A stretch of DNA of 13,736 bases from Pseudomonadales bacterium. Its GTDB lineage: Bacteria; Pseudomonadota; Gammaproteobacteria; Pseudomonadales; Litorivicinaceae. The stretch is taken from NCBI GenBank assembly GCA_012269655.1, contig JAAXJV010000222.1, positions 1-13,736 of the forward strand, written 5' to 3'. Shown piece after piece: positions 1-13,736 of the stretch (its first letter is position 1; every line of letters starts with the position of its first letter). The translations under genes were made by a program, and so were the position numbers. The notes beneath the pieces are model-generated. The model worked only from the letters and a program-made list of their open reading frames with translations. It did not search any database and was not told the origin of the DNA.

Positions 1-2040
1 CTTCAATCCGCTCGACCGTTGATGATTGCGTCCTTCTTCGTCTCTCAAGCAGTCTTATTGATCGGTGGGTACTTCACGATTCGGGATGTGCATCAAGAGG
101 TTGAATTCACCCGGGCCGAAGTTGATGCGTTGGTGCCCGCCCAACAGACACTTAACACGCTCATCAACTTGGGTGAATTCCGTGGTTCCTGCAGCGCAAC
201 CGCACACAATTACTTTTTCGGTTTGCCCAAATTAGAGCGACGTTGCCGAGAATCCTTGGAATCCTTGGAATCCTTGGAATCCTTGGATTACGCCGGCGGT
301 GCTGAGCTATTTGAGCAGGTCAGCCAACTTATTGCTGAGCTGCAGGAAGATTTATCACAACGCCACGCTTCATCAAACGTGCTGCTAGACCCAGTGCTCG
401 AAACCTATGGGCTGGGTTATTTGATCTTTGAAACCTACCCCAGGCTGGCTGAATTATTAGGTCAGGTTCGCGGAGAGCGGGCCATTCGGGCGAGTTCTGG
501 CACTGCGGTATTTGTAAGCAATTACTATCGTTCGCAACGGGCGGCCTTGGAGCGCTCCATTGGGGATTTGTTGAGTAATCCCAATTTGCCTCCAGCCAAG
601 TCTGCGATGACCTCGGATTTTCTGACGTCCGTCCGCGCTTATTTGATTAATCTGCCGGCCATCCCGATTGGTGAAACCGACGCTGTGCAGGCGGAATGGG
701 ACGAAGTTACAGGGCTAATACAATCACTGGCGGCGGCTGCAGCGGCGGACAACGAGGCGGCTACTAAACTGTTGCAAGCGCGTCTTGCACGGCAAACAAG
801 CCAACGAAATGCGCTGATCGGGTTATTTTTGGTGCTCAGTTTGCTGGTGTTTATCGGCCATTGGCTGGCGGCGGCCGCACAGCATCGTCAAGATAAGGCG
901 CTGGCGGAGGCTCGCATGGCCCGTCACGAATTGACCGATTTGTTAGCTAAACAGAAGCATATGTTTGCGGTGGTGGGGCATGAGCTGCGGACGCCCGTGT
1001 CTTTAATCAACATGATGTCAGAGAATCGAGAGCGGATCGCCGAGGACTTGCTTGATGATATCGGCTCCACGTCAGAACAACTCTTGGCCGTTTTAGAGGA
1101 TTTACGCTTTGTGGTCGCGCCTGAGCGTGCCCTTGAAGTCGCAAAAAATATCGCGGTGCCAACGAACTTGATTGAGCGTGCGTTGAGCCCTTTGATGCCG
1201 TTGTCATCGGCTAAAGGCATCGCCCTTACCATTGCAGTACCAGAACAAACCGAAGCATTTGAGATGCATGACCAAGCGTTGCGTCAGGTGATTAACAACC
1301 TCGTTAACAATGCAATCAAACACTCTGGAGGCTCACAGATTTCAGTTCAATTTGATTACCGATGGCAGTCAACCGACCACGCAACCGCGGTTTTACGCGT
1401 TGAGGACAACGGCATTGGAGTTCCTGAAACTGCCCGAGACTCTGTCTTTGAACCCTTTGTCAAAGGCGTCAGCGGGCACAGCGATGGCACTGGACTCGGA
1501 TTGAGTATTGTTCGGCAGTTCAGTGAACTGATGCAGGGTCAGTTGGCATATTTCGACAGCGATCTGGGCGGCGCGGGCTTTGAACTAACTTTTCCAATTC
1601 AGGCCGCGGAACTTGAGCTGCAGAAAACAAAGGTATCTATGGATGCGTTAAGCGGTCTGCGGATTCTTTTTGCGGAGGATGATTCGATGTTGCGAATCAT
1701 GACGCAGCGTATCTTGGAAAAGCGGGGCGCACAGGTCACGGCCATGGAGGATGGCCAAAAAGCACTCAACGCTTATGACCCAAACGAGTATGACCTGGTC
1801 CTCACCGACCTGATGATGCCTAATCTAGACGGGCTGGGATTGGTAAAGGCTGTACGTGAACAGGGCGGTACGACATCCATTGTGGCCGTAACGGCCGCCG
1901 TGATTGGCAACGAAACCCAGCAGTTGCTAAGCGCCGGCGCAAACCATGTGATGCCTAAGCCCATCAAGCCGGATGAATTGGCCGACTGGTGGGTCGAGAA
2001 TTACGAATCCGGTGAGTTATCGGCTGCGATTCGCGATTAG
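1..2040 (+). CDS. Hybrid sensor histidine kinase with C-terminal receiver (5' partial)
   Basis: Membrane-bound hybrid two-component kinase. The frame is open to the first base of the window, so the true start is probably upstream; the first in-window starts are TTG 19 and ATG 22, right at the first membrane helix. Numbering from TTG 19: helix 1 at about 2-21, a mostly helical periplasmic region at 25-260, helix 2 at about 265-287, HisKA with the phosphoacceptor H321 in a HELRTP motif, then HATPase_c with an N-box (NNLVNNAIKHS), a G1 box (DNGIG) and a G2 box (GTGLGLS). The receiver at about 548-665 has the acidic pair D554/D555, phosphoacceptor D597 (LTDLMMP) and the KP lysine. No DNA-binding output or HPt domain is attached, so a separate partner must take the phosphate. 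The ligand is unknown. A 9-bp repeat lies in the sensor domain. The 3' end overlaps the convergent gene by 24 bp. Confidence 0.93.
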   Translation, partial: LQSARPLMIASFFVSQAVLLIGGYFTIRDVHQEVEFTRAEVDALVPAQQTLNTLINLGEFRGSCSATAHNYFFGLPKLERRCRESLESLESLESLDYAGGAELFEQVSQLIAELQEDLSQRHASSNVLLDPVLETYGLGYLIFETYPRLAELLGQVRGERAIRASSGTAVFVSNYYRSQRAALERSIGDLLSNPNLPPAKSAMTSDFLTSVRAYLINLPAIPIGETDAVQAEWDEVTGLIQSLAAAAAADNEAATKLLQARLARQTSQRNALIGLFLVLSLLVFIGHWLAAAAQHRQDKALAEARMARHELTDLLAKQKHMFAVVGHELRTPVSLINMMSENRERIAEDLLDDIGSTSEQLLAVLEDLRFVVAPERALEVAKNIAVPTNLIERALSPLMPLSSAKGIALTIAVPEQTEAFEMHDQALRQVINNLVNNAIKHSGGSQISVQFDYRWQSTDHATAVLRVEDNGIGVPETARDSVFEPFVKGVSGHSDGTGLGLSIVRQFSELMQGQLAYFDSDLGGAGFELTFPIQAAELELQKTKVSMDALSGLRILFAEDDSMLRIMTQRILEKRGAQVTAMEDGQKALNAYDPNEYDLVLTDLMMPNLDGLGLVKAVREQGGTTSIVAVTAAVIGNETQQLLSAGANHVMPKPIKPDELADWWVENYESGELSAAIRD
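250..285 (+). repeat. In-frame 9-bp tandem repeat, four copies
   Basis: Four perfect consecutive copies of GAATCCTTG, each encoding Glu-Ser-Leu, sit in the periplasmic sensor domain of the first hybrid kinase. The unit is a multiple of three, so gain or loss of copies would change domain length without a frameshift. Perfect nucleotide identity among copies suggests recent slippage-type expansion. Confidence 0.9.
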
Positions 2041-3610: not shown

Positions 3611-5338
3611 ATGCTTTCGGGCTTGAAACAAAGCTACATACAACACTACGAGGCGCGGCAGAATTTTCTGATCCGTTTCCAATGGTTTACCTTGTTACTC
3701 GGTAGTGGGATCTTCATCGCTTTGCTCTGGTCCGGATCCCACGTGGCCGCAGTCTCGACCGGCTTTTTTTCGCTCTGCGTGCTTGTAACCTTTCCACTAA
3801 GAACCCGTGGATACTCCGTCCTTTGCGCCGTTTCACTCTCGATAATTATGCTGGCAGAACCAACGACCGCCATCGTTTTCAGCCGCGGTATTGAGTCGCC
3901 TTATTTAATTTGGCTGGTGGTGCCCATGTTTGCGGCTACCGGTCTATTGGGGGCTCGCGGTGGAATCTTGACGGGCATCACAGCGGTTGTTACCTACATT
4001 GTGCTGTATATCTGGTCGGAGCCGATCAATCGGCTGAACGAACTCGCTCCCGAGTATTACGAAGGGATGTTTTTTCTCTCCTTTGTATCGGCCGTGGCCT
4101 ACTGTGCGGCCATTGCATGGATCGCGGTGTCAGCCATCGAAAAGGAATCCACTCAAGCATCTGAGCAGGCCGCAATAAGCGCCTTAAAGGCCACTCAACT
4201 GGCCGATTCAGAAAAGCAGTTGACTCGTCAGATTGATGAGCAAAAGAACTTGCAGGCGATTATTGCGCACGAACTTCGAACCCCCGCGGCCACACTGAAG
4301 ATGCTATTTGATGATCATTTATCTGCACAATTGGCGGAATCCGAACGCAGCACAGTGAATGATTTGCTGGAGCATCTGCACTCGGTTATGGACGACATGC
4401 AACTGGTGCGTGAGCCAGACCGGCTTGCGCAAGCGACCCGGACGAAGGGTGAGTTCAGCGCAGTCATACAGGCCTCCGTCCACATGGCGGATCGATTTGT
4501 GAAAGACGCTGAGCTCGAGATTGAACTGCTGCCCGCACAAGACGAGGTCGCCGTGCTATTACCCAAACAAGTCCTTCGGCAGATCACCATTAACCTCGTC
4601 AAGAACTGTGCAGTGCATGCCAATGCTACTCGTCTTCGGATCAGCATGGCTTATGAGGTTCGTGAGCAGCAAGTCCATTACCAAGTTCTGTTCGAAGACG
4701 ATGGTTCGGGTGTTCCCGCTGACTATCGAAGTCAAATTTTCGAGCCTTTCGGTCGTGGTACTTCAGAGGCGGACGGAAGTGGGATCGGCTTATCGGTTTG
4801 CCGTGATTATGCCAGATCTGCCTTATCAGGTGATCTCGCGTATGTTGACAGCGAACTAGGCGGAGCAGGATTCCGCTTAACTGGGGTGTTAGAGCTTGCG
4901 AAATCTGATAAGCCGTATCGAGCCGGTGAGTTGCCCAAGGCAATCGAAGGCCAATCTGTTTTGTTGGTGGAAGACTCACTGGTCTTGCAAACCCTCACCA
5001 AAAAAATGTTAGAGGCGCAGGGCGCGCGGGTACAAGTCGCGGATGATGGGATCAACGCCATGAAAGCCCTAGGCGACTCGTCATTCGATCTAATTTTGAC
5101 CGATTTGCACATGCCCAAAATGGATGGGATTGAACTGACTAAGACGCTTCGGGCTTTGGATCATAACGTGCCAATTTTTGGACTCACGGCGGCCTTTGGC
5201 GATGAATCCAAATTGCTGATGGCGGCGGGTGCCAACGCCATTTTGGGTAAGCCTCTGTCGGTTCAGGCGCTAAATAAGGCGATCATCGAGCTTGATTCGA
5301 CAAAACCGCCGTTGTCGCTAGTGTCGAGCCGCGGATAG
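3611..5338 (+). CDS. Hybrid sensor histidine kinase, multi-pass membrane sensor, C-terminal receiver
   Basis: A 575-aa hybrid kinase. ATG 3611 is preceded by AGAGAAG about 6 nt upstream. About six hydrophobic helices span residues 20-175 (near 20-41, 45-63, 68-90, 97-114, 115-135, 152-175), so sensing is within or near the membrane; I could not assign a named MASE or 7TM family. A helical linker at 176-213 leads to HisKA with H220 in AHELRTP. HATPase_c has an N-box (NLVKNCAVHA), G1 (DDGSG) and G2 (DGSGIGLS). The receiver at about 449-565 has E454/D455, phosphoacceptor D498 (LTDLHMP) and the terminal KP. It has no DNA-binding domain. Its HATPase end and receiver closely resemble those of the kinase at 1-2040 while the sensors differ, suggesting paralogues. 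No response regulator gene adjoins it. The terminator that follows mainly serves mmsA but could act for both. Confidence 0.94.
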   Translation: MLSGLKQSYIQHYEARQNFLIRFQWFTLLLGSGIFIALLWSGSHVAAVSTGFFSLCVLVTFPLRTRGYSVLCAVSLSIIMLAEPTTAIVFSRGIESPYLIWLVVPMFAATGLLGARGGILTGITAVVTYIVLYIWSEPINRLNELAPEYYEGMFFLSFVSAVAYCAAIAWIAVSAIEKESTQASEQAAISALKATQLADSEKQLTRQIDEQKNLQAIIAHELRTPAATLKMLFDDHLSAQLAESERSTVNDLLEHLHSVMDDMQLVREPDRLAQATRTKGEFSAVIQASVHMADRFVKDAELEIELLPAQDEVAVLLPKQVLRQITINLVKNCAVHANATRLRISMAYEVREQQVHYQVLFEDDGSGVPADYRSQIFEPFGRGTSEADGSGIGLSVCRDYARSALSGDLAYVDSELGGAGFRLTGVLELAKSDKPYRAGELPKAIEGQSVLLVEDSLVLQTLTKKMLEAQGARVQVADDGINAMKALGDSSFDLILTDLHMPKMDGIELTKTLRALDHNVPIFGLTAAFGDESKLLMAAGANAILGKPLSVQALNKAIIELDSTKPPLSLVSSRG

Positions 5339-8390: not shown

Positions 8391-8537
8391 GGATTATCTC
8401 CTTAATAAGCCCTGTGTGGGGAACAATTCGGCGCATTAAACCCCCAAAACATCGAACGATCGGCATCTGGGACATAAGGCCATGGTCCGGACGCGCTCCT
8501 AGCGTTAACTTAAAAGTCTAAGGAAGGAAGTTAAAAC

Positions 8538-8543
8538 AGGGAG
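8538..8543 (+). promoter_or_regulatory. Ribosome binding site of the STAS gene
   Basis: AGGGAG ends 6 nt before ATG 8550 and only 3 nt before the alternative GTG 8547, so ATG 8550 is preferred. Confidence 0.6.
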
Positions 8544-8549
8544 TACGTG

Positions 8550-9017
8550 ATGTGTCCAACCGATGTGGCCATGAGTCGGCGCCAAGTCGGAGCCGAAGTT
8601 CCAATGGTGGCTTCAGAATTAACGGATAACTCTATTTATACCGGGTTATTCGGCTCGATTGACTCAGCCCGGATGGCCAGCATTACAGAGTCTCTCATAC
8701 AGCTGGCTGACGAGCGTCAGGTCCAAATCGCAATTATCGATCTTAGCAATGTCGACGCCATTGATTCGTCAGTGGCGGCCTACATGGTTAAGCTGGGAAA
8801 AACCTTAGAGTTGGTTGGCGTTTCTTCAGTTTTTTGCGGTATTTCGGGCCCATTAGCCAGCACCATGATCGGCGCAGGGCTTGATCTGGGTCGTTTCAGA
8901 GCGGTGCGCGATCTAAAGGCTGCCCTCCAGTATTCGTTCGAAGCGACAGGGTACCGTCTCGTGCGAATGGATCCGCACAATAACGGGTCCAATGCTGTTC
9001 GGAAGGACCCGGGCTAA
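8550..9017 (+). CDS. RsbS-like STAS-domain protein (partner-switching antagonist)
   Basis: A 155-aa single-STAS protein. After a loose N-terminus of about 25 residues, it follows the RsbS/RsbR STAS pattern: IIDLSNVDAIDSSVAAYM at 62-79, LELVGVSSVFCGI at 86-98, then PLASTMIGAGLDLG. S73, in the IDS motif, aligns by eye with Ser59 of Bacillus subtilis RsbS, and T105 with Thr205 of RsbR. In that system these residues are phosphorylated by the RsbT kinase to release it. Here the kinase gene follows directly, overlapping by 26 bp or starting 25 bp later depending on its start codon. There is no sensor domain as in RsbR, so it is closer to RsbS. A roughly 25-residue polar tail is extra. It is the first gene of a three-gene operon and probably sequesters the kinase until phosphorylated. 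Confidence 0.85.
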   Translation: MCPTDVAMSRRQVGAEVPMVASELTDNSIYTGLFGSIDSARMASITESLIQLADERQVQIAIIDLSNVDAIDSSVAAYMVKLGKTLELVGVSSVFCGISGPLASTMIGAGLDLGRFRAVRDLKAALQYSFEATGYRLVRMDPHNNGSNAVRKDPG

Positions 9018-10017
9018 ACCTTTGTCTGCAATAGGGGACAGTGTGGCCAATCCGATAGAGACGATCACTCTTGATTCAGAAAACGGCATAGCACCAGCGG
9101 TTCACGCGATCAAATTGGTTGGATTAGAGATTGGCTTTCAAAGCTATGATCTGGCCGAGGTCTGTCTTGCTGCATCTGAAATATTGACCAACGCCATACG
9201 CTATGCTGGTCAGGCGGAACTTCAGATTGATCCGACCATTAATGGAAAAGGGATCGAGCTGACGATCCGGGATCATGGACCGGGTATCAAGGATTTGGCT
9301 TGGGCGGAAATAGACGGCAACACCTCTTGGCGAGGTAAAAGCCTAGGGCTTGGTTTGGGAGCAGCACGTCGATGCGTTGACGACATGCGGATCGAAACAA
9401 ATAATTCAGGAACCGTCGTTCAGTTGCGATCCTTCTTGCCCCTCGGGTCACAGGATATCGAGACTTCGGTCATCAGTTTTCCAGCGGTCAACAAATCCAT
9501 CAATGCCGATAGCGTGTTATTAACAGAGTTTAATGGTGATTGTTTGTTGGCAGCGTTGATTGTGGGTGCATCCTCTGAAAGAACCCGAGATGAAATACGA
9601 AATTTCCTGAATAACGCGAAGTATCAAACATTGGCACAGGGTTTGATTCAAACCCATGAATATTTGAAAAGCATCCAAGAAGCGGGGATTTCGGTAGGGT
9701 TGATTCGGGTTACACCCGACCGAATACAAGCGCGATCTGTTGGGGATGTTGCCGTCCAAATTTGGGCAGAGCAAACCATCCAAAATGTGGATTCCGCTGG
9801 AACCTTAGGGGTGTTTTTTGACGCAACGTTTCCCGAGATCGACGTTGAGCGTAGACCCAATGCGCAGATATTGATGTGTTCGCCGGGGCTTCCATCTCCG
9901 GCGTGGCCTGATCAGCATGAAAGTTTGTCCGCGCAAGCTATCGCACGCCTGTTATTCAACCGTTATGAACAGGCTGATCGGGACAGCAGTGTTGTGGTAG
10001 TGAGGTGTGTTTCATGA
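8992..10017 (+). CDS. RsbT-like serine kinase fused to degenerate RsbX-like PP2C domain
   Basis: A 341-aa two-domain protein. Residues about 20-150 are an RsbT-type HATPase: N-box E63xxxN67 in SEILTNAIRYAG, G1 DHGPG at 94-98, G2 GLGLG at 119-123, and GTVVQ near 140. RsbT phosphorylates STAS antagonists. Residues about 160-341 follow the order of RsbX-type PP2C phosphatases (LLAALIVG, SVGDVAVQIW at 249-258, SAGTLG, QILMCSPGL, DSSVVVVR), but the acidic metal-binding residues appear replaced: the DG pair by V191-G192, TDG by S297-P298-G299, and the terminal DD by D331-S332. The half may be catalytically dead. ATG 8992 overlaps the STAS gene by 26 bp; GTG 9043, with AGGGGA just upstream, is a credible alternative that keeps the kinase fold. 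The next gene begins within its stop codon. Confidence 0.85.
   Translation: MLFGRTRAKPLSAIGDSVANPIETITLDSENGIAPAVHAIKLVGLEIGFQSYDLAEVCLAASEILTNAIRYAGQAELQIDPTINGKGIELTIRDHGPGIKDLAWAEIDGNTSWRGKSLGLGLGAARRCVDDMRIETNNSGTVVQLRSFLPLGSQDIETSVISFPAVNKSINADSVLLTEFNGDCLLAALIVGASSERTRDEIRNFLNNAKYQTLAQGLIQTHEYLKSIQEAGISVGLIRVTPDRIQARSVGDVAVQIWAEQTIQNVDSAGTLGVFFDATFPEIDVERRPNAQILMCSPGLPSPAWPDQHESLSAQAIARLLFNRYEQADRDSSVVVVRCVS
9033..9038 (+). promoter_or_regulatory. Possible ribosome binding site for alternative start GTG 9043
   Basis: AGGGGA ends 4 nt before GTG 9043, codon 18 of the longer reading. It is stronger than anything before ATG 8992, so the fusion protein may start here, 25 bp after the STAS stop. 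Confidence 0.4.
10002..10007 (+). promoter_or_regulatory. Ribosome binding site of the GGDEF-EAL gene
   Basis: GAGGTG ends 6 nt before ATG 10014, inside the end of the preceding gene. It favours ATG 10014 over GTG 10005, and the resulting ATGA overlap implies translational coupling. Confidence 0.65.
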
Positions 10018-11651
10018 GTGCCTTTGATGCGGTTCATTTGCGCAAAATACTAGAAGGCATAGTCGGTAACGCTCCCTTTGGGATCGTCACCCTATCCTCT
10101 GGGCATGAAGTGGGAATCTTGAATCGCATTGCATCCGAGCTACTCGGTTTTGTTAATGGTCCGCTAGACGACTTGGTTGATAACGACGTCGGGTATTTAT
10201 TCGCACGGTTGCCTGAAGTGACAGAATACGTTGCAACGCAAAAATCCTTTGAGGTCATTGAGGCGAAGGATTTACCCAAGCTTAACCTGGGCAATCGAAT
10301 AGTGGACGTCAAGATCAGGCCGCTGTTTAACGGTGTTCTGATTTTGTTAGACGACGTGACGAAAACAGCAGAATTGGCTGAACGACTGCGGCACGCCGCC
10401 GCGATTGATTCGCTTACTCAGTTACTCAATCGTGCTGAATTAGAGACGATCGCTTCGCGGACAATTGAAACAGCGATCAATCAAAAAAAAACAGGTGCAG
10501 TTCTATTCATTGATTTAGATAAGTTTAAGTTGGTTAATGATCAGGGCGGACACGAGGCGGGAGATCAATTGCTGATCGATATCGCTAGTTTGTTAAGAGG
10601 TGTCGTTCGACAGCGAGACGTGGTGGCTCGAATAGGTGGCGATGAGTTCACGGTTCTGCTTGAGGACTGTTCCATTGCTAAAGCGACGTCGATCGCTCAA
10701 CAACTGTGTGTACAAATTAACCAATATCGATTGGTGCGGAAGGGCAAAGGTTTTGCCGTGGGCGCTTCGGTCGGCGTCGCAGGCTTTGGGAGAGACGGCG
10801 ATACCCTCGAGGCTGTGCTGAATGCAGCGGACAATGCCAGTGCAATTGCGAAGCGCGCTGGGGGTAAACGCGTGCATGTTGCGGATGAAAACTACTCGGA
10901 ATACAAACAATATTTGTCAGAAGTCAGTTGGCTTCCTCGGCTAGAAGCAGCCTTGTCGGAAAATCAGTTCACCTTATATCGGCAGGCCATTCGCCCATCA
11001 GGCCCAGAAAATGAGTTAATCAGCGAAGTGCTGATTCGATATATAGACCCAATTCGAGGGGTGGTGTCGCCTAGCGAATTCATCCCCCCGTCCGAGCGAT
11101 ACGGGTTAATTGGGCAGATTGATCGTTGGGTCATACATGAGTCGCTTGCAAGCGCACAGATTGATCAGACCTACAGCATTAACCTCTCCGGCGCGACTAT
11201 TACCGAGCCGGATATGGTTGATTTTATCAAGCGTGAGTTTGCCCAAAGCTCGGTATCGCCAACAAACATCGTGTTTGAAATAACGGAAACAGCAGCGATC
11301 AATAACTTCGCAACGGCTCAGCAATTTATACAGCAAATTACCCAGTTGGGATGTCGATTTGCTTTAGACGATTTTGGTGCTGGCTTAAGTTCATTTGCAT
11401 ATCTGCGTGAATTACCGGTCGATTTTATAAAGATCGATAAATCCTTGATCGATGGTGTGTGTGCGGATAAACGCTCGTTTGCCATCGTGCAATCTATTGC
11501 AGCGATGGCAAAGGCGATGCAGATTCGCACGATTGCCGAGGGAGTCGAGGAAGGCCCCGCCGCAAACCGTTTAGTCGAGGCTGGAATCGACTATTTGCAG
11601 GGCTACCTATTCGATCGCCCCAGCCTACTCAAAGAGGCTGCTTTGCATTGA
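10014..11651 (+). CDS. PAS-GGDEF-EAL cyclic-di-GMP protein
   Basis: A 545-aa soluble protein with no membrane helix or signal peptide. An N-terminal PAS-like domain (about 5-120) leads through a helix (TAELAERLRHAAAIDSLTQLLNR) into GGDEF. The GGDEF site is intact at 208-212, with LFIDLDKFKLVND upstream and an RxxD inhibitory site (RQRD) five residues before it. The EAL domain starts with E338-V-L in place of EAL but keeps the expected residues: an NLS, EITET, D452/D453 in DDFGAGLSSFAYL, the KIDKS lysine, E509 in AEGVEE, and the QGYLFDRP end. Both diguanylate cyclase and phosphodiesterase activities look possible. It overlaps the RsbT/X gene by 4 bp (ATGA), so it is the likely output of that module, perhaps via PAS binding of the kinase. 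No terminator follows; its stop is 12 bp from the convergent betB stop. Confidence 0.94.
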   Translation: MSAFDAVHLRKILEGIVGNAPFGIVTLSSGHEVGILNRIASELLGFVNGPLDDLVDNDVGYLFARLPEVTEYVATQKSFEVIEAKDLPKLNLGNRIVDVKIRPLFNGVLILLDDVTKTAELAERLRHAAAIDSLTQLLNRAELETIASRTIETAINQKKTGAVLFIDLDKFKLVNDQGGHEAGDQLLIDIASLLRGVVRQRDVVARIGGDEFTVLLEDCSIAKATSIAQQLCVQINQYRLVRKGKGFAVGASVGVAGFGRDGDTLEAVLNAADNASAIAKRAGGKRVHVADENYSEYKQYLSEVSWLPRLEAALSENQFTLYRQAIRPSGPENELISEVLIRYIDPIRGVVSPSEFIPPSERYGLIGQIDRWVIHESLASAQIDQTYSINLSGATITEPDMVDFIKREFAQSSVSPTNIVFEITETAAINNFATAQQFIQQITQLGCRFALDDFGAGLSSFAYLRELPVDFIKIDKSLIDGVCADKRSFAIVQSIAAMAKAMQIRTIAEGVEEGPAANRLVEAGIDYLQGYLFDRPSLLKEAALH

Positions 11652-11663
11652 ATTACATTGGTT

Positions 11664-13130
11664 TTAATACGGGGCTTCAACCTCGTTGATCGAAACATAT
11701 ACAGATTTAACCTGCGAGTAGTGCGATAGGGCATGTTTTGAGTTCTCACGCCCTAGGCCTGAATGCTTCATGCCGCCAAAGGGCGCCTCAACCGGGGTTA
11801 GGTTGTAGGTATTGATGTAACAGGTGCCGGCCTCAAACTGAGCGGCCACCCGATGGGCTCGGGCTAAGTCCTGAGTAAAGACGCCGGCAGCTAAGCCAAA
11901 TTCAGTTGCGTTGGCTCGGCAGACTGCTTCTTCTTCGGTGTCAAAGGTCAAGACAGACATAACGGGGCCAAAAATTTCTTCTCGGGCAATCGTCATATCA
12001 TCGGTCACATCGGCAAACACGGTGGGTTGTAGGAACAGCCCGCCGGCATCGGTGGTGCTGCCGCCGCATACCAATCGCGCGCCATCAGCGAGGCCACTTC
12101 GAATGTAGTCTTTGACGATGTCGAGTTGGGTTTGACTGATCATGGGGCCGTAGTTCACGGACTCATCCAACGGATTCCCCATCACAACATGTTCTAGCCG
12201 CTCTGTCAGTCTGTTCAAGAAGGGCTCAAGCATCTGGCGTTGGACAAATACCCGAGTCCCGTTCGAGCAAATTTGGCCTGAAGAATAGAAATTGCCGTTG
12301 ATGGCGCCGCCGACGGCATTGTCCAAATCGGCGTCATCAAAAATGATGATCGGCGACTTTCCACCCAGCTCCAGCGTGACGGGCTTTAAAGAGGCTGCCG
12401 CATGTTGATACACCTTTTTGCCAGTCGGCACCGAGCCTGTGATTGAGATCTTTGCGATGTCGGGATGATCAATCAGCTTGGCGCCCACTGCGCCGCGGCC
12501 CTGCACGACATTGAATAGGCCAGCCGGTGCCCCGGCATCAATGAAGATTTCAGCCAGTTTCAATGCCGATAGAGGCGTGGTTTCGGACGGCTTAAAGATC
12601 ATCGCGTTGCCTGCAGCCAATGCAGGCGCGGCTTTCCACGAGGCAATTTGGATCGGATAGTTCCAAGCCCCAATGCCCAGACAAACGCCCAGTGGACAGT
12701 GTTCGGTCACCACAAAGTCGCCGTTAGGCAATCGAACATGCTCGCCGGTTAAGCCGGCTGAAATTGAGCCAAAATATTCCAGCGCCTCAGCCCCTGACGC
12801 AGCATCCGCCACCAGCGTTTCCTGCAGTGGTTTGCCCGTGTCGAGTGTTTCTAGTTGCGAAAGTTCATGATTTCGCTCGCGCATCAACTCGCTGGCTTTG
12901 CGTAACACCGCGCCGCGCTCAACACCGGATAGCGTTGCCCAGGCTTGATGTGCGCGAACCGCACTGGCCATGGCCTGCTCGATAATGGCATCGGTGGCTT
13001 CATGGACTGTCGCAATGACCTCGCCGGTATAGGGGTAGGTCACTTCAATCACAGCGCCCGCGCTGTCTTCAATGTATTGCCCGTCGATGAAGTGACTGGC
13101 CTTGGGCTGTGTGGGAATAGGGTAAGTCAT
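11664..13130 (-). CDS. betB: BetB-type aldehyde dehydrogenase (betaine aldehyde or 4-trimethylaminobutyraldehyde)
   Basis: NAD(P)+-dependent aldehyde dehydrogenase of 488 aa, the BetB length. Family marks are the N-terminal HFIDGQYIE, the [23 protein letters not shown]ossmann region, [10 protein letters not shown] with the general-base glutamate, catalytic C288 in [24 protein letters not shown], and the C-terminal [14 protein letters not shown]. BetB oxidises betaine aldehyde to glycine betaine. However, ALDH9-type 4-trimethylaminobutyraldehyde dehydrogenases are close relatives and make gamma-butyrobetaine. The gene is translationally coupled to a gamma-butyrobetaine-hydroxylase-type dioxygenase (stop TGA overlaps this ATG) and betA and betI are not seen, so the second substrate is a serious alternative. 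ATG 13130 has AAGGA 6 nt upstream. It is convergent with the GGDEF-EAL gene. Confidence 0.9.
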
Positions 13131-13736
13131 GCGGTTTCCTTGTTCGCCCTAGAGAGTACTCGGATTTTGCTATCCCATTCACCCCGATCGACATAACAGC
13201 CTCGAAAGTGGCGACGGCCGGTTTGCGGGTCAAAGGCCTGCCGACCATGCAGCACTCGGCGGTTGTCAAACACGGCCATTTGGCCGGCCTGAAGTTTGAT
13301 TTCAAAATGATGATCGGGGTCGCGAATCAGCTTCATTAGCTGGCGGTACGCTCGGTAATAGGCGGCCATGTTTTCCGGAGCGATATCTAAAATGCCAGCC
13401 AAGTGCGCATTAAAGCGAAGCTCGACAATGGCGCCAAATGGGTCGGTTCGAATAACCGTTTGATGGGTGCCTAGGTCGTAGTCCTGATCGTGAAAGCGCA
13501 TCGGAACATAGGTCGTCGACAACACTTCGAAGGCCTCCGGATCGATCCGGCGGAGCTCCTCGGCCATGGCAAACCCGTCACAGAATACCGAGCCGCCGCC
13601 CTCAGCCTCATTCGCGAGGCAATGCAGGAATTGAAAGCCCGGTGGCATTTCTTGATTCGGCAGATCCGTATGCAGGGGCAAGTGAATCGAGGTGTACGCC
13701 AGATTGTTCGGATCGGGCTTAGAGACGACTTCGAAT
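13127..13736 (-). CDS. Gamma-butyrobetaine/trimethyllysine dioxygenase-type Fe(II)/2-oxoglutarate enzyme (5' partial)
   Basis: The C-terminal 202 codons of a TauD/TfdA-superfamily oxygenase; the gene continues beyond the window. The frame is open to the last base and reads on upstream into [18 protein letters not shown], so the in-frame TTG near 13681 is not the true start. The iron ligands are visible: H and D of the HTD motif (codons 13672-13670 and 13666-13664) and the distal H of VLHGR (13249-13247). The C-terminal [14 protein letters not shown] followed by SKIRVL is typical of gamma-butyrobetaine hydroxylase and trimethyllysine dioxygenase. The missing N-terminus, which usually carries a zinc-binding DUF971-like domain in these families, would help separate them. 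The stop overlaps the betB start as ATGA, so both are one transcript, dioxygenase first. Gamma-butyrobetaine to carnitine is the favoured reaction, by inference. Confidence 0.85.

Follow-up and report, generated by a model that had tools for sequence, protein, structure and literature searches.

The window, a stretch of 13,736 nucleotides from a Pseudomonadales bacterium (contig JAAXJV010000222.1), carries three co-directional and tightly packed genes that encode a STAS protein, a HATPase fused to a PP2C-like domain, and a PAS-GGDEF-EAL protein. This arrangement, first described in a sequence-only reading, was recovered by both the open reading frame list (8547-9017, 8992-10017 and 10005-11651, + strand) and Pfam. 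Table 1 presents the features of the cassette. By comparison with relatives of the same length, the STAS protein begins at the ATG at 8550. The kinase may begin at the ATG at 8992 or the TTG at 9022, the latter position being the start in two of the three closest kinase relatives (P0002 and P0003). The ATG of the enzyme overlaps the kinase stop codon as ATGA. In the region where the promoter of the cassette would be expected, a consensus scan lists no promoter. In the scan as a whole, promoter-like sites are rarer than in shuffled sequences and terminator-like sites fall within the spread of the shuffles. As the sequence-only reading had stated, no gene for an RsbR with a sensor domain, a sigma factor or an anti-sigma factor was seen in the window, judging from the open reading frame list and Pfam searches of 12 of its ORFs.

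Table 1. Features of the three-gene cassette and its upstream region.
Feature	Position	Strand	Basis
Intergenic region between divergent DUF3833 gene and cassette	8391..8549	.	ORF list, consensus promoter scan
STAS protein, RsbR-class without sensor domain, 155 aa	8550..9017	+	Pfam STAS, PDB profile comparison
HATPase (RsbT/SpoIIAB-type) kinase domain fused to PP2C/RsbX-like domain	8992 (or TTG 9022)..10017	+	Pfam, family profile vs PDB
PAS-like, GGDEF, EAL enzyme, 545 aa	10014..11651	+	Pfam; motif residues

Domains and motifs of the three proteins

The first protein contains a STAS domain (Pfam, E 1.1e-11). Counted from its ATG, S73 is the serine of the motif AIDSS, as previously placed, and this predicted phosphosite column holds Ser or Thr in 47 of 47 rows. 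Motif row counts given here include near-duplicates (P0043 and L019; P0033-P0035 resemble L035). A conserved N-terminal extension reads A7-x-S9-R10...E16-x-P18, with A7, S9 and E16 invariant in 41 rows. The earlier description of this protein as RsbS-like was rejected on three comparisons: the STAS profile scores 74.6 bits against RsbR in the PDB, 48.5 against the best RsbS and 24.8 against SpoIIAA; hhalign gives 2.1e-20 over 144 columns for RsbR versus 2.7e-7 over 82 for the non-RsbR reference; and a tree, albeit with long branches, supports the split from RsbS at 91/86. By these measures, the trio STAS protein is of the RsbR class; it has no sensor domain.

The second protein matches HATPase_c_2 (Pfam, E 9.5e-15), with a HATPase domain at approximately residues 20-150 and a PP2C/RsbX-like domain at approximately 158-341. 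The N-box residues E63 and N67 are invariant in 22 rows, and an RsbT-type HATPase with N-box Glu and Asn, as found in stressosomes, is therefore present. In a tree that carries a long-branch warning, the trio HATPase domains group apart from RsbT and beside those of stressosome loci. Taken alone, the C-terminal half of the window protein has no PP2C match in Pfam; the family profile of the fusion (A4, which excludes a true stressosome fusion) matches the SpoIIE-named entry 3zt9 (1.3e-18) and RsbX entry 3w40 (1.6e-14) in the PDB. At the profile level, the RsbX-like half keeps the PP2C fold. The columns that are presumed to hold the metal-binding aspartates of PP2C read D,V,P,R in the window protein instead of D,D,D,D, a loss of three of the four predicted ligands. 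The full set occurs in 12 of 16 relatives (12 of 17 trio proteins counting the window). In three loci scored as D,D,D,D (L021, L026 and L031) the glycines that follow the second Asp are changed, making their phosphatase activity unsure, and the Shimia locus lacks the phosphatase domain. In the window, the RsbX-like half looks catalytically dead from its residues, and with three predicted ligands missing a working fused phosphatase was rejected here. The proposed fusion of an RsbT-like kinase to RsbX stands as to the HATPase and the PP2C fold, but the kinase domain groups apart from RsbT and three of the four predicted metal aspartates are gone. Since stressosome-type loci carry the same kinase-RsbX fusion, it is not a special feature of the trio.

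The third protein matches GGDEF (2.6e-38) and EAL (8.7e-59) in Pfam. The GGDEF motif, the I-site (RxxD) and the active-site residues of the EAL domain are all kept (RQRD-5-GGDEF; E338, N390, E422, D452-D453, K473, and a downstream Glu and Gln), residues which we take to have their usual catalytic roles. Of the 25 enzyme rows that could be read, 24 have GGDEF. The PAS-like region of the window protein has no Pfam match at E<=1, and among 18 family members PAS_9 and PAS are each matched weakly by eight. No RsbU_N-type domain is found among the Pfam matches of the enzyme N-terminus in family members.

Conservation and spread of the trio

Scanning genome contigs with the STAS profile identified 18 loci from scattered marine and sulfur bacteria of the Pseudomonadota and Campylobacterota. 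All three genes occur in the same order in 16 loci, and in the remaining two a contig end truncates the locus. The linkage on which the sequence-only reading depended therefore holds, with the GGDEF gene beside the STAS/kinase pair in every locus with enough sequence. In a set of 390 genomes from the same taxonomic order, only three hold the strongest STAS matches (2.6e-60 or better), and those three also contain the strongest kinase matches (1.8e-80 or better) and every PAS match at E<=1e-10. The window is itself a row of the STAS, kinase and PAS profiles (A2, A4, A6), and the other two positive genomes, those of loci L021 and L025, contribute rows to the kinase and PAS profiles; the informative part of this result is consequently the lack of further strong matches. 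The kinase profile matched another 12 genomes at 6.2e-39 or weaker, and the neighbourhoods read, those of G052, G083, G115, G335 and G368, are all stressosome-type; the other seven genomes are G180, G227, G265, G284, G293, G316 and G318, and G116 has a second, weak match. Scanning genomes with just the kinase sequence gave no matches. The parts, their conservation as a unit, the phosphosite, the ATP-binding residues and the loss of phosphatase residues can be read from the sequences, and the trio is a real unit.

No flanking family occurs in more than 4 of the 18 loci under crude gene calling (longest non-overlapping frames), giving no sign of a fourth member. In two genomes of the same genus, the left neighbour has no match at E<=1e-3 and the right neighbour none at E<=1e-100. 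A trio tree built without L024 and L035, and subject to a long-branch warning, splits the Pseudoalteromonas units; together with the lack of widely shared flanks, this makes transfer of the cassette between hosts likely. Carriage by plasmids or phages was rejected, the matches listed being distant: 136 plasmid records matched, with all of the 20 listed at or below 31.3% identity, and the single phage match was at 28.8%. The one plasmid match opened was a five-gene stressosome-type locus.

Comparison with stressosomes and known partner switches

The stressosome core is a large, pseudo-icosahedral assembly; components of that of Moorella thermoacetica include MtS, MtT, MtR and MtX. By the gene content used here, a stressosome has two STAS proteins, one an RsbR that carries a sensor domain and the other an RsbS. 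The unit has one STAS gene, the same single-STAS order is found in 16 loci, and no second STAS match was found on this contig. Judged by gene content, the trio is therefore not a stressosome. Nor does the trio, earlier described as stripped down, look like the recent remnant of a stressosome: in trees with a long-branch warning, its STAS domains and its HATPase domains each cluster separately, next to those from stressosome loci.

Several described systems share features with the trio. In the Moorella system, STAS and an RsbT-like kinase act on a GGDEF enzyme, and the kinase MtT is reported to bind and attenuate the cyclase MtG (PMC7647112, PMC12143880). That system is a stressosome in which an RsbS-like protein serves as scaffold, and its GGDEF protein has the N-terminal domain of RsbU, whereas the trio has one RsbR-class STAS protein, a PAS-like N-terminus, GGDEF plus EAL, and a kinase fused to PP2C. 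The rsbRSTX modules of Proteobacteria (Vibrio vulnificus type), with histidine-kinase outputs or outputs proposed to be c-di-GMP (PMC9237108), have related STAS, kinase and RsbX-like parts; they comprise RsbR with a sensor, RsbS and RsbT, while the trio has neither a second STAS protein nor a sensor half. In HsbR-HsbA-HsbD of Pseudomonas aeruginosa, kinase and PP2C lie in one protein that operates with an anti-sigma-antagonist and a diguanylate cyclase partner (PMC6482189). HsbR differs in having a receiver domain and a tie to sigma factors. In SiaABCD (P. aeruginosa) and BgrUWVR (Sinorhizobium meliloti), a cyclase is gated by whether a STAS-type protein is phosphorylated, with the difference that kinase and phosphatase are separate proteins and the outputs are described as cyclases. 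The cyclase-binding state is unphosphorylated for SiaC and phosphorylated for HsbA. As in Hsb, Sia and Bgr, a phosphorylatable STAS protein, a HATPase kinase and a GGDEF protein are encoded together here. What stands of the earlier proposal is the unit, in which partner-switch genes are linked to an enzyme of c-di-GMP turnover, but with an RsbR-class instead of an RsbS-like STAS protein.

A candidate switch for c-di-GMP

The trio is most likely a dedicated partner switch that sets c-di-GMP, in the manner of Hsb, Sia, Bgr or the Moorella stressosome. The tentatively favored version is a self-contained cassette that does so through the STAS protein. The phosphotransfer, binding, direction of control and signal that we infer would operate as follows. 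The HATPase domain would phosphorylate the STAS protein on S73, and the state of S73 would decide whether the STAS protein partners with the kinase or the PAS-GGDEF-EAL protein. This choice may shift the cyclase/phosphodiesterase balance of the enzyme, as SiaC, HsbA and BgrV do for cyclases. For most relatives, removal of the phosphate is probably the work of the fused PP2C domain. In the window and its closest relatives the metal ligands are lost and the domain may be a structural or phospho-STAS-binding part only; resetting in this genome would then need another phosphatase, and two SpoIIE-type phosphatases are encoded elsewhere in it. The STAS domain is the most conserved of the six domains (52% mean identity). 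Counted against this explanation is that the genome is 78% complete.

A real possibility is a stressosome-like output, the logic of the sequence-only reading, in which the unphosphorylated STAS protein holds the kinase until phospho-S73 frees it to bind PAS or the PAS-GGDEF linker. RsbR-class STAS proteins and RsbT-class kinases come from a lineage in which the kinase, once released, is the known messenger, which favors this route, as does the behavior of MtT towards MtG. In addition, RsbT is reported to order the RsbU linker, and related linkers to join sensors to GGDEF domains. The kinase may bind the enzyme; against this, the enzyme N-terminus is PAS-like and lacks an RsbU_N-type match, and the HATPase is less conserved than the STAS domain and, weakly, tracks GGDEF divergence less. 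Across 17 genomes and with no significance test, the partial correlation of divergence with GGDEF is 0.37 for STAS and -0.10 for HATPase, that with EAL is 0.12 for STAS and 0.15 for HATPase, and that of STAS with PAS is -0.05. These correlations are too weak to choose between the STAS and kinase models. In an improbable alternative, the cassette plugs into a larger switch: its kinase or STAS protein would swap partners with RsbS, other SpoIIE phosphatases or sigma regulators encoded elsewhere, and control of c-di-GMP would be just one output. The apparently dead phosphatase half would fit, as would three more STAS matches, on other contigs of this genome, and the two SpoIIE phosphatases mentioned above; against it, the trio is found in unrelated hosts without widely shared neighbours, suggesting self-sufficiency. 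That the genes are neighbours by chance and their products have no joint function can be given almost no weight: no supporting point was found, all 16 loci with enough sequence, from two phyla, retain the gene order and the packing, and the strongest matches of all three kinds are confined to the same 3 of 390 genomes.

A broader and rather doubtful proposal is that the trio represents a c-di-GMP switch of three genes that has not been described before, has spread horizontally and is based on an RsbR-class STAS protein without a sensor. Its phosphatase would have decayed repeatedly to a pseudophosphatase or, in Shimia, been lost, the domain usually being kept. If true, the dead domain would be a reader of phospho-STAS, and a reversible switch would have become a latch, or a gate with two signals, dependent on an outside phosphatase. 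As a candidate Ser/Thr partner switch for c-di-GMP the cassette is very small, since the unit comprises three genes and includes neither a sigma factor nor another STAS protein. Named marine isolates carry it; cultured relatives include Colwellia psychrerythraea GAB14E, Litorivivens lipolytica and Thiomicrorhabdus sp. Milos-T2 (L033), the last with all four phosphatase aspartate columns. It may illustrate how parts of the RsbR class function away from a stressosome. The versions with intact, decayed and absent phosphatases that exist in nature offer a direct test of the role of the domain, and also allow one to ask whether the STAS protein or the kinase signals to the GGDEF-EAL enzyme.

Organization of the trio

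Three genes on the + strand encode a STAS protein, a protein with HATPase and PP2C-like domains (the kinase protein) and a PAS-GGDEF-EAL enzyme, flanked by a divergent DUF3833 gene and a convergent aldehyde dehydrogenase-family gene. The genome comprises 1.6 Mb in 310 contigs (estimated completeness 78%), and the window is its contig 61. When checked against the ORFs and the alignment, the span (8550-11651) and the STAS phosphosite (S73) proposed by the sequence-only reading are both correct.

Coordinates of the trio, neighboring genes and comparison loci
Feature	Source	Position	Strand	Description
STAS protein gene	window	ATG 8550	+	155 residues
Second trio gene	window		+	HATPase domain, then second domain
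Third trio gene	window	ATG 10014	+	GGDEF-EAL protein; overlaps stop of second gene
Hybrid histidine kinase	window	19-2040		HATPase + receiver; HisKA match
Hybrid histidine kinase	window	3611-5338		HATPase + receiver; no HisKA match
Aldehyde dehydrogenase-family gene	window	11664-13130	minus	overlaps TauD-family gene
TauD-family dioxygenase gene	window	13127-13681	minus
SpoIIE phosphatase, then overlapping STAS protein	L060 (own genome, contig 308)	83-1664		adjoins PilZ gene
HATPase + receiver + SpoIIE protein	L061 (own genome, contig 42)	580-3418		overlaps sigma-54-type response regulator gene
Stressosome-type locus	L045	3-7511
Trio variant, Shimia	L035	7356-8237		kinase protein is HATPase domain only

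The trio is conserved as a unit. Searches at the protein level returned 29 STAS relatives, 6 kinase relatives and 9 relatives of enzyme residues 1-130, the window's own proteins counted, and several of these link pairwise through contigs of identical length, two of them from Candidatus Thiodiazotropha. A STAS profile searched against genome contigs gave 18 loci; the hosts are Pseudoalteromonas, Colwellia, Glaciecola, Shewanella, Vibrio, Litorivivens, Oleiphilus, Oleiphilaceae, one further gammaproteobacterium, Thiomicrorhabdus, Sulfurimonas, Hydrogenimonas and Shimia. The order STAS-kinase-enzyme is complete in 16 of the 18; the contig stops directly after the STAS gene in L024 and within the enzyme gene in the Shimia locus, where the kinase protein lacks a phosphatase domain and has no room for one. 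By crude gene calling, no gene family is common to more than four loci in flanks of up to 7 kb.

Upstream of the trio, the two hybrid histidine kinases are co-directional and about 1.6 kb apart. The aldehyde dehydrogenase/TauD pair resembles trimethylaminobutyraldehyde dehydrogenase and butyrobetaine hydroxylase, presumably pointing to carnitine-related metabolism. Two SpoIIE-type phosphatases are encoded elsewhere in the genome, one of which also carries receiver and HATPase domains; the genome further contains nine GGDEF matches (trio enzyme included) and two PilZ matches. The L060 pair is likely a second partner-switch pair of this genome.

The three proteins

Called RsbS-like in the sequence-only reading, the STAS protein is, by its sequence relationships, RsbR-class. 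Its best solved relative is 7o0i_B (5.9e-13), deposited as 'Anti-anti-sigma factor', which we take to be a stressosome RsbR; chains named RsbR follow from 7.2e-10, ahead of RsbS at 3.3e-5. The family profile likewise scores RsbR at 74.6 bits, the photoreceptor 2mwg at 49.2, RsbS at 48.5 and SpoIIAA at 24.8. In profile-profile alignment, the trio STAS family matches RsbR-like proteins from six stressosome-type loci over 144 columns (2.1e-20), pairing its N-terminal extension with the segment directly preceding the RsbR-like STAS domain, and RsbS-like proteins from five of those loci over 82 columns (2.7e-7). A tree splits trio STAS and RsbR from RsbS (91/86) on very long branches. The sensor half of RsbR is missing. 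Within the extension, A7, S9 and E16 do not vary across 41 rows, and the predicted phosphosite is Ser/Thr in 47 rows out of 47. A stressosome-type locus, L045, pairs RsbR with a divergent RsbS-like STAS protein without the usual Asp-Ser site; it holds a HATPase-SpoIIE fusion, with no separate RsbT seen at the locus, and a GGDEF gene further along.

In the kinase protein, N-box residues E63 and N67 are invariant across 22 rows, and the trio HATPase domains form one group (90/75), to which neither stressosome RsbT nor RsbT-X fusions nor histidine-kinase-linked domains belong. The second domain of the window protein alone gave no PP2C match in Pfam; among the 22 family members, however, 10 match SpoIIE, and a search with the family profile retrieves 3zt9 (1.3e-18) and RsbX (1.6e-14). 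Four columns of this domain we take to be the PP2C metal-binding aspartates. They read D,V,P,R in the window and its relative P0002, E,V,P,Q in P0003 and E,A,P,Q in P0004. All four are kept in 12 of 16 full loci, three of which (L021, L026, L031) have altered glycines beside the second Asp, and at least one is missing in the other four: L019 (DDDN), L022 (DDND), L025 (DDDE) and L027 (NDLL). Two further proteins, read without their gene neighborhoods, P0005 and P0006, have all four and DDDG, respectively. Single substitutions are weak evidence of phosphatase loss; the strong putative cases are the window group and L027. On the combined tree, the state of these columns requires a minimum of three changes. 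In the window group, the PP2C-like domain remains full-length with 59-73% identity to the three relatives, versus 80-84% for the HATPase domain, and is therefore faster-evolving, yet not deleted.

The window enzyme retains GGDEF, the RxxD I-site and all examined EAL residues. GGDEF is kept in 24 of 25 readable rows, window included (L027 has GSDQF), RxxD is absent from L025 and L027, the EAL-loop surroundings are altered in L033 (EVPQT, DDFCRG), and P0042 has lost one Glu. Both activities are therefore predicted for the window enzyme, while either may be weakened in some relatives. The N-terminus is PAS-like by weak matches in relatives only (PAS_9 in 8 of 18 members, PAS in 8 of 18).

A candidate switch and its precedents

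HATPase kinases of this class phosphorylate a STAS protein at a conserved Ser/Thr, and partners are exchanged according to whether that residue is phosphorylated. The trio kinase would act likewise on its STAS protein, and the resulting partner exchange would control the GGDEF-EAL enzyme. That the trio is a dedicated switch for this enzyme is very probable.

Contact of the STAS protein with the enzyme is a reasonable but tentative proposal, not quite an even prospect, and contact by the kinase is somewhat doubtful. The ancestry of the trio parts leans to the kinase; the lack of an RsbU_N-type Pfam match in the enzyme leans to the STAS protein, as does a weak divergence correlation (STAS-GGDEF 0.37 vs HATPase-GGDEF -0.10), though STAS-PAS stands at -0.05. 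Precedents exist for each. Partner switches are tied to c-di-GMP in HsbRA-HsbD (PMC6482189), SiaC-SiaD and BgrV-BgrR (PMC8457831, PMC7647112) and Moorella MtT-MtG (PMC7647112, PMC12143880, PMC4976288); the cyclase is the target of a STAS-type protein in the first three systems and of the kinase in Moorella. Published work also covers rsbRSTX loci of Proteobacteria for which c-di-GMP outputs have been proposed (PMC9237108).

Partner switching to c-di-GMP is, as a kind, already known. In our searches of open-access literature, with subscription journals mostly outside their scope, we found no description of the STAS/kinase-PP2C/PAS-GGDEF-EAL trio, nor of the variant combining a sensorless RsbR-class STAS protein, a fused kinase and decaying phosphatase, and GGDEF-EAL output in a portable three-gene unit.

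Distribution among hosts

Among 390 same-order genomes, the STAS profile matches eight at E<=1e-20, three of them at 2.6e-60 or better. The remaining five (1.8e-21 to 3.4e-21) lie in longer frames of 293-328 residues, and their loci show an RsbR-like gene adjoining a second STAS gene. The PAS profile matches three genomes at E<=1e-10. The kinase profile matches 15 at E<=1e-20: three of them reach 1.8e-80 or better, and the other 12 are no stronger than 6.2e-39. The strong matches of all three profiles fall in the identical three genomes. Since both the kinase profile and the PAS profile already include all three among their rows, the information added is that no other of the 390 comes close. 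A class-level search of 369 genomes (E<=1e-25) matched the window's own genome only. By these counts, the unit is rare and patchy in distribution.

In the combined tree, which is unrooted, carries long-branch warnings and does not resolve the placement of Campylobacterota units relative to the rest, the unit of Pseudoalteromonas denitrificans forms a pair with Colwellia (100/100) and two other Pseudoalteromonas units cluster with Oleiphilaceae (100/100). This split among Pseudoalteromonas units suggests that the trio has moved between hosts by transfer.
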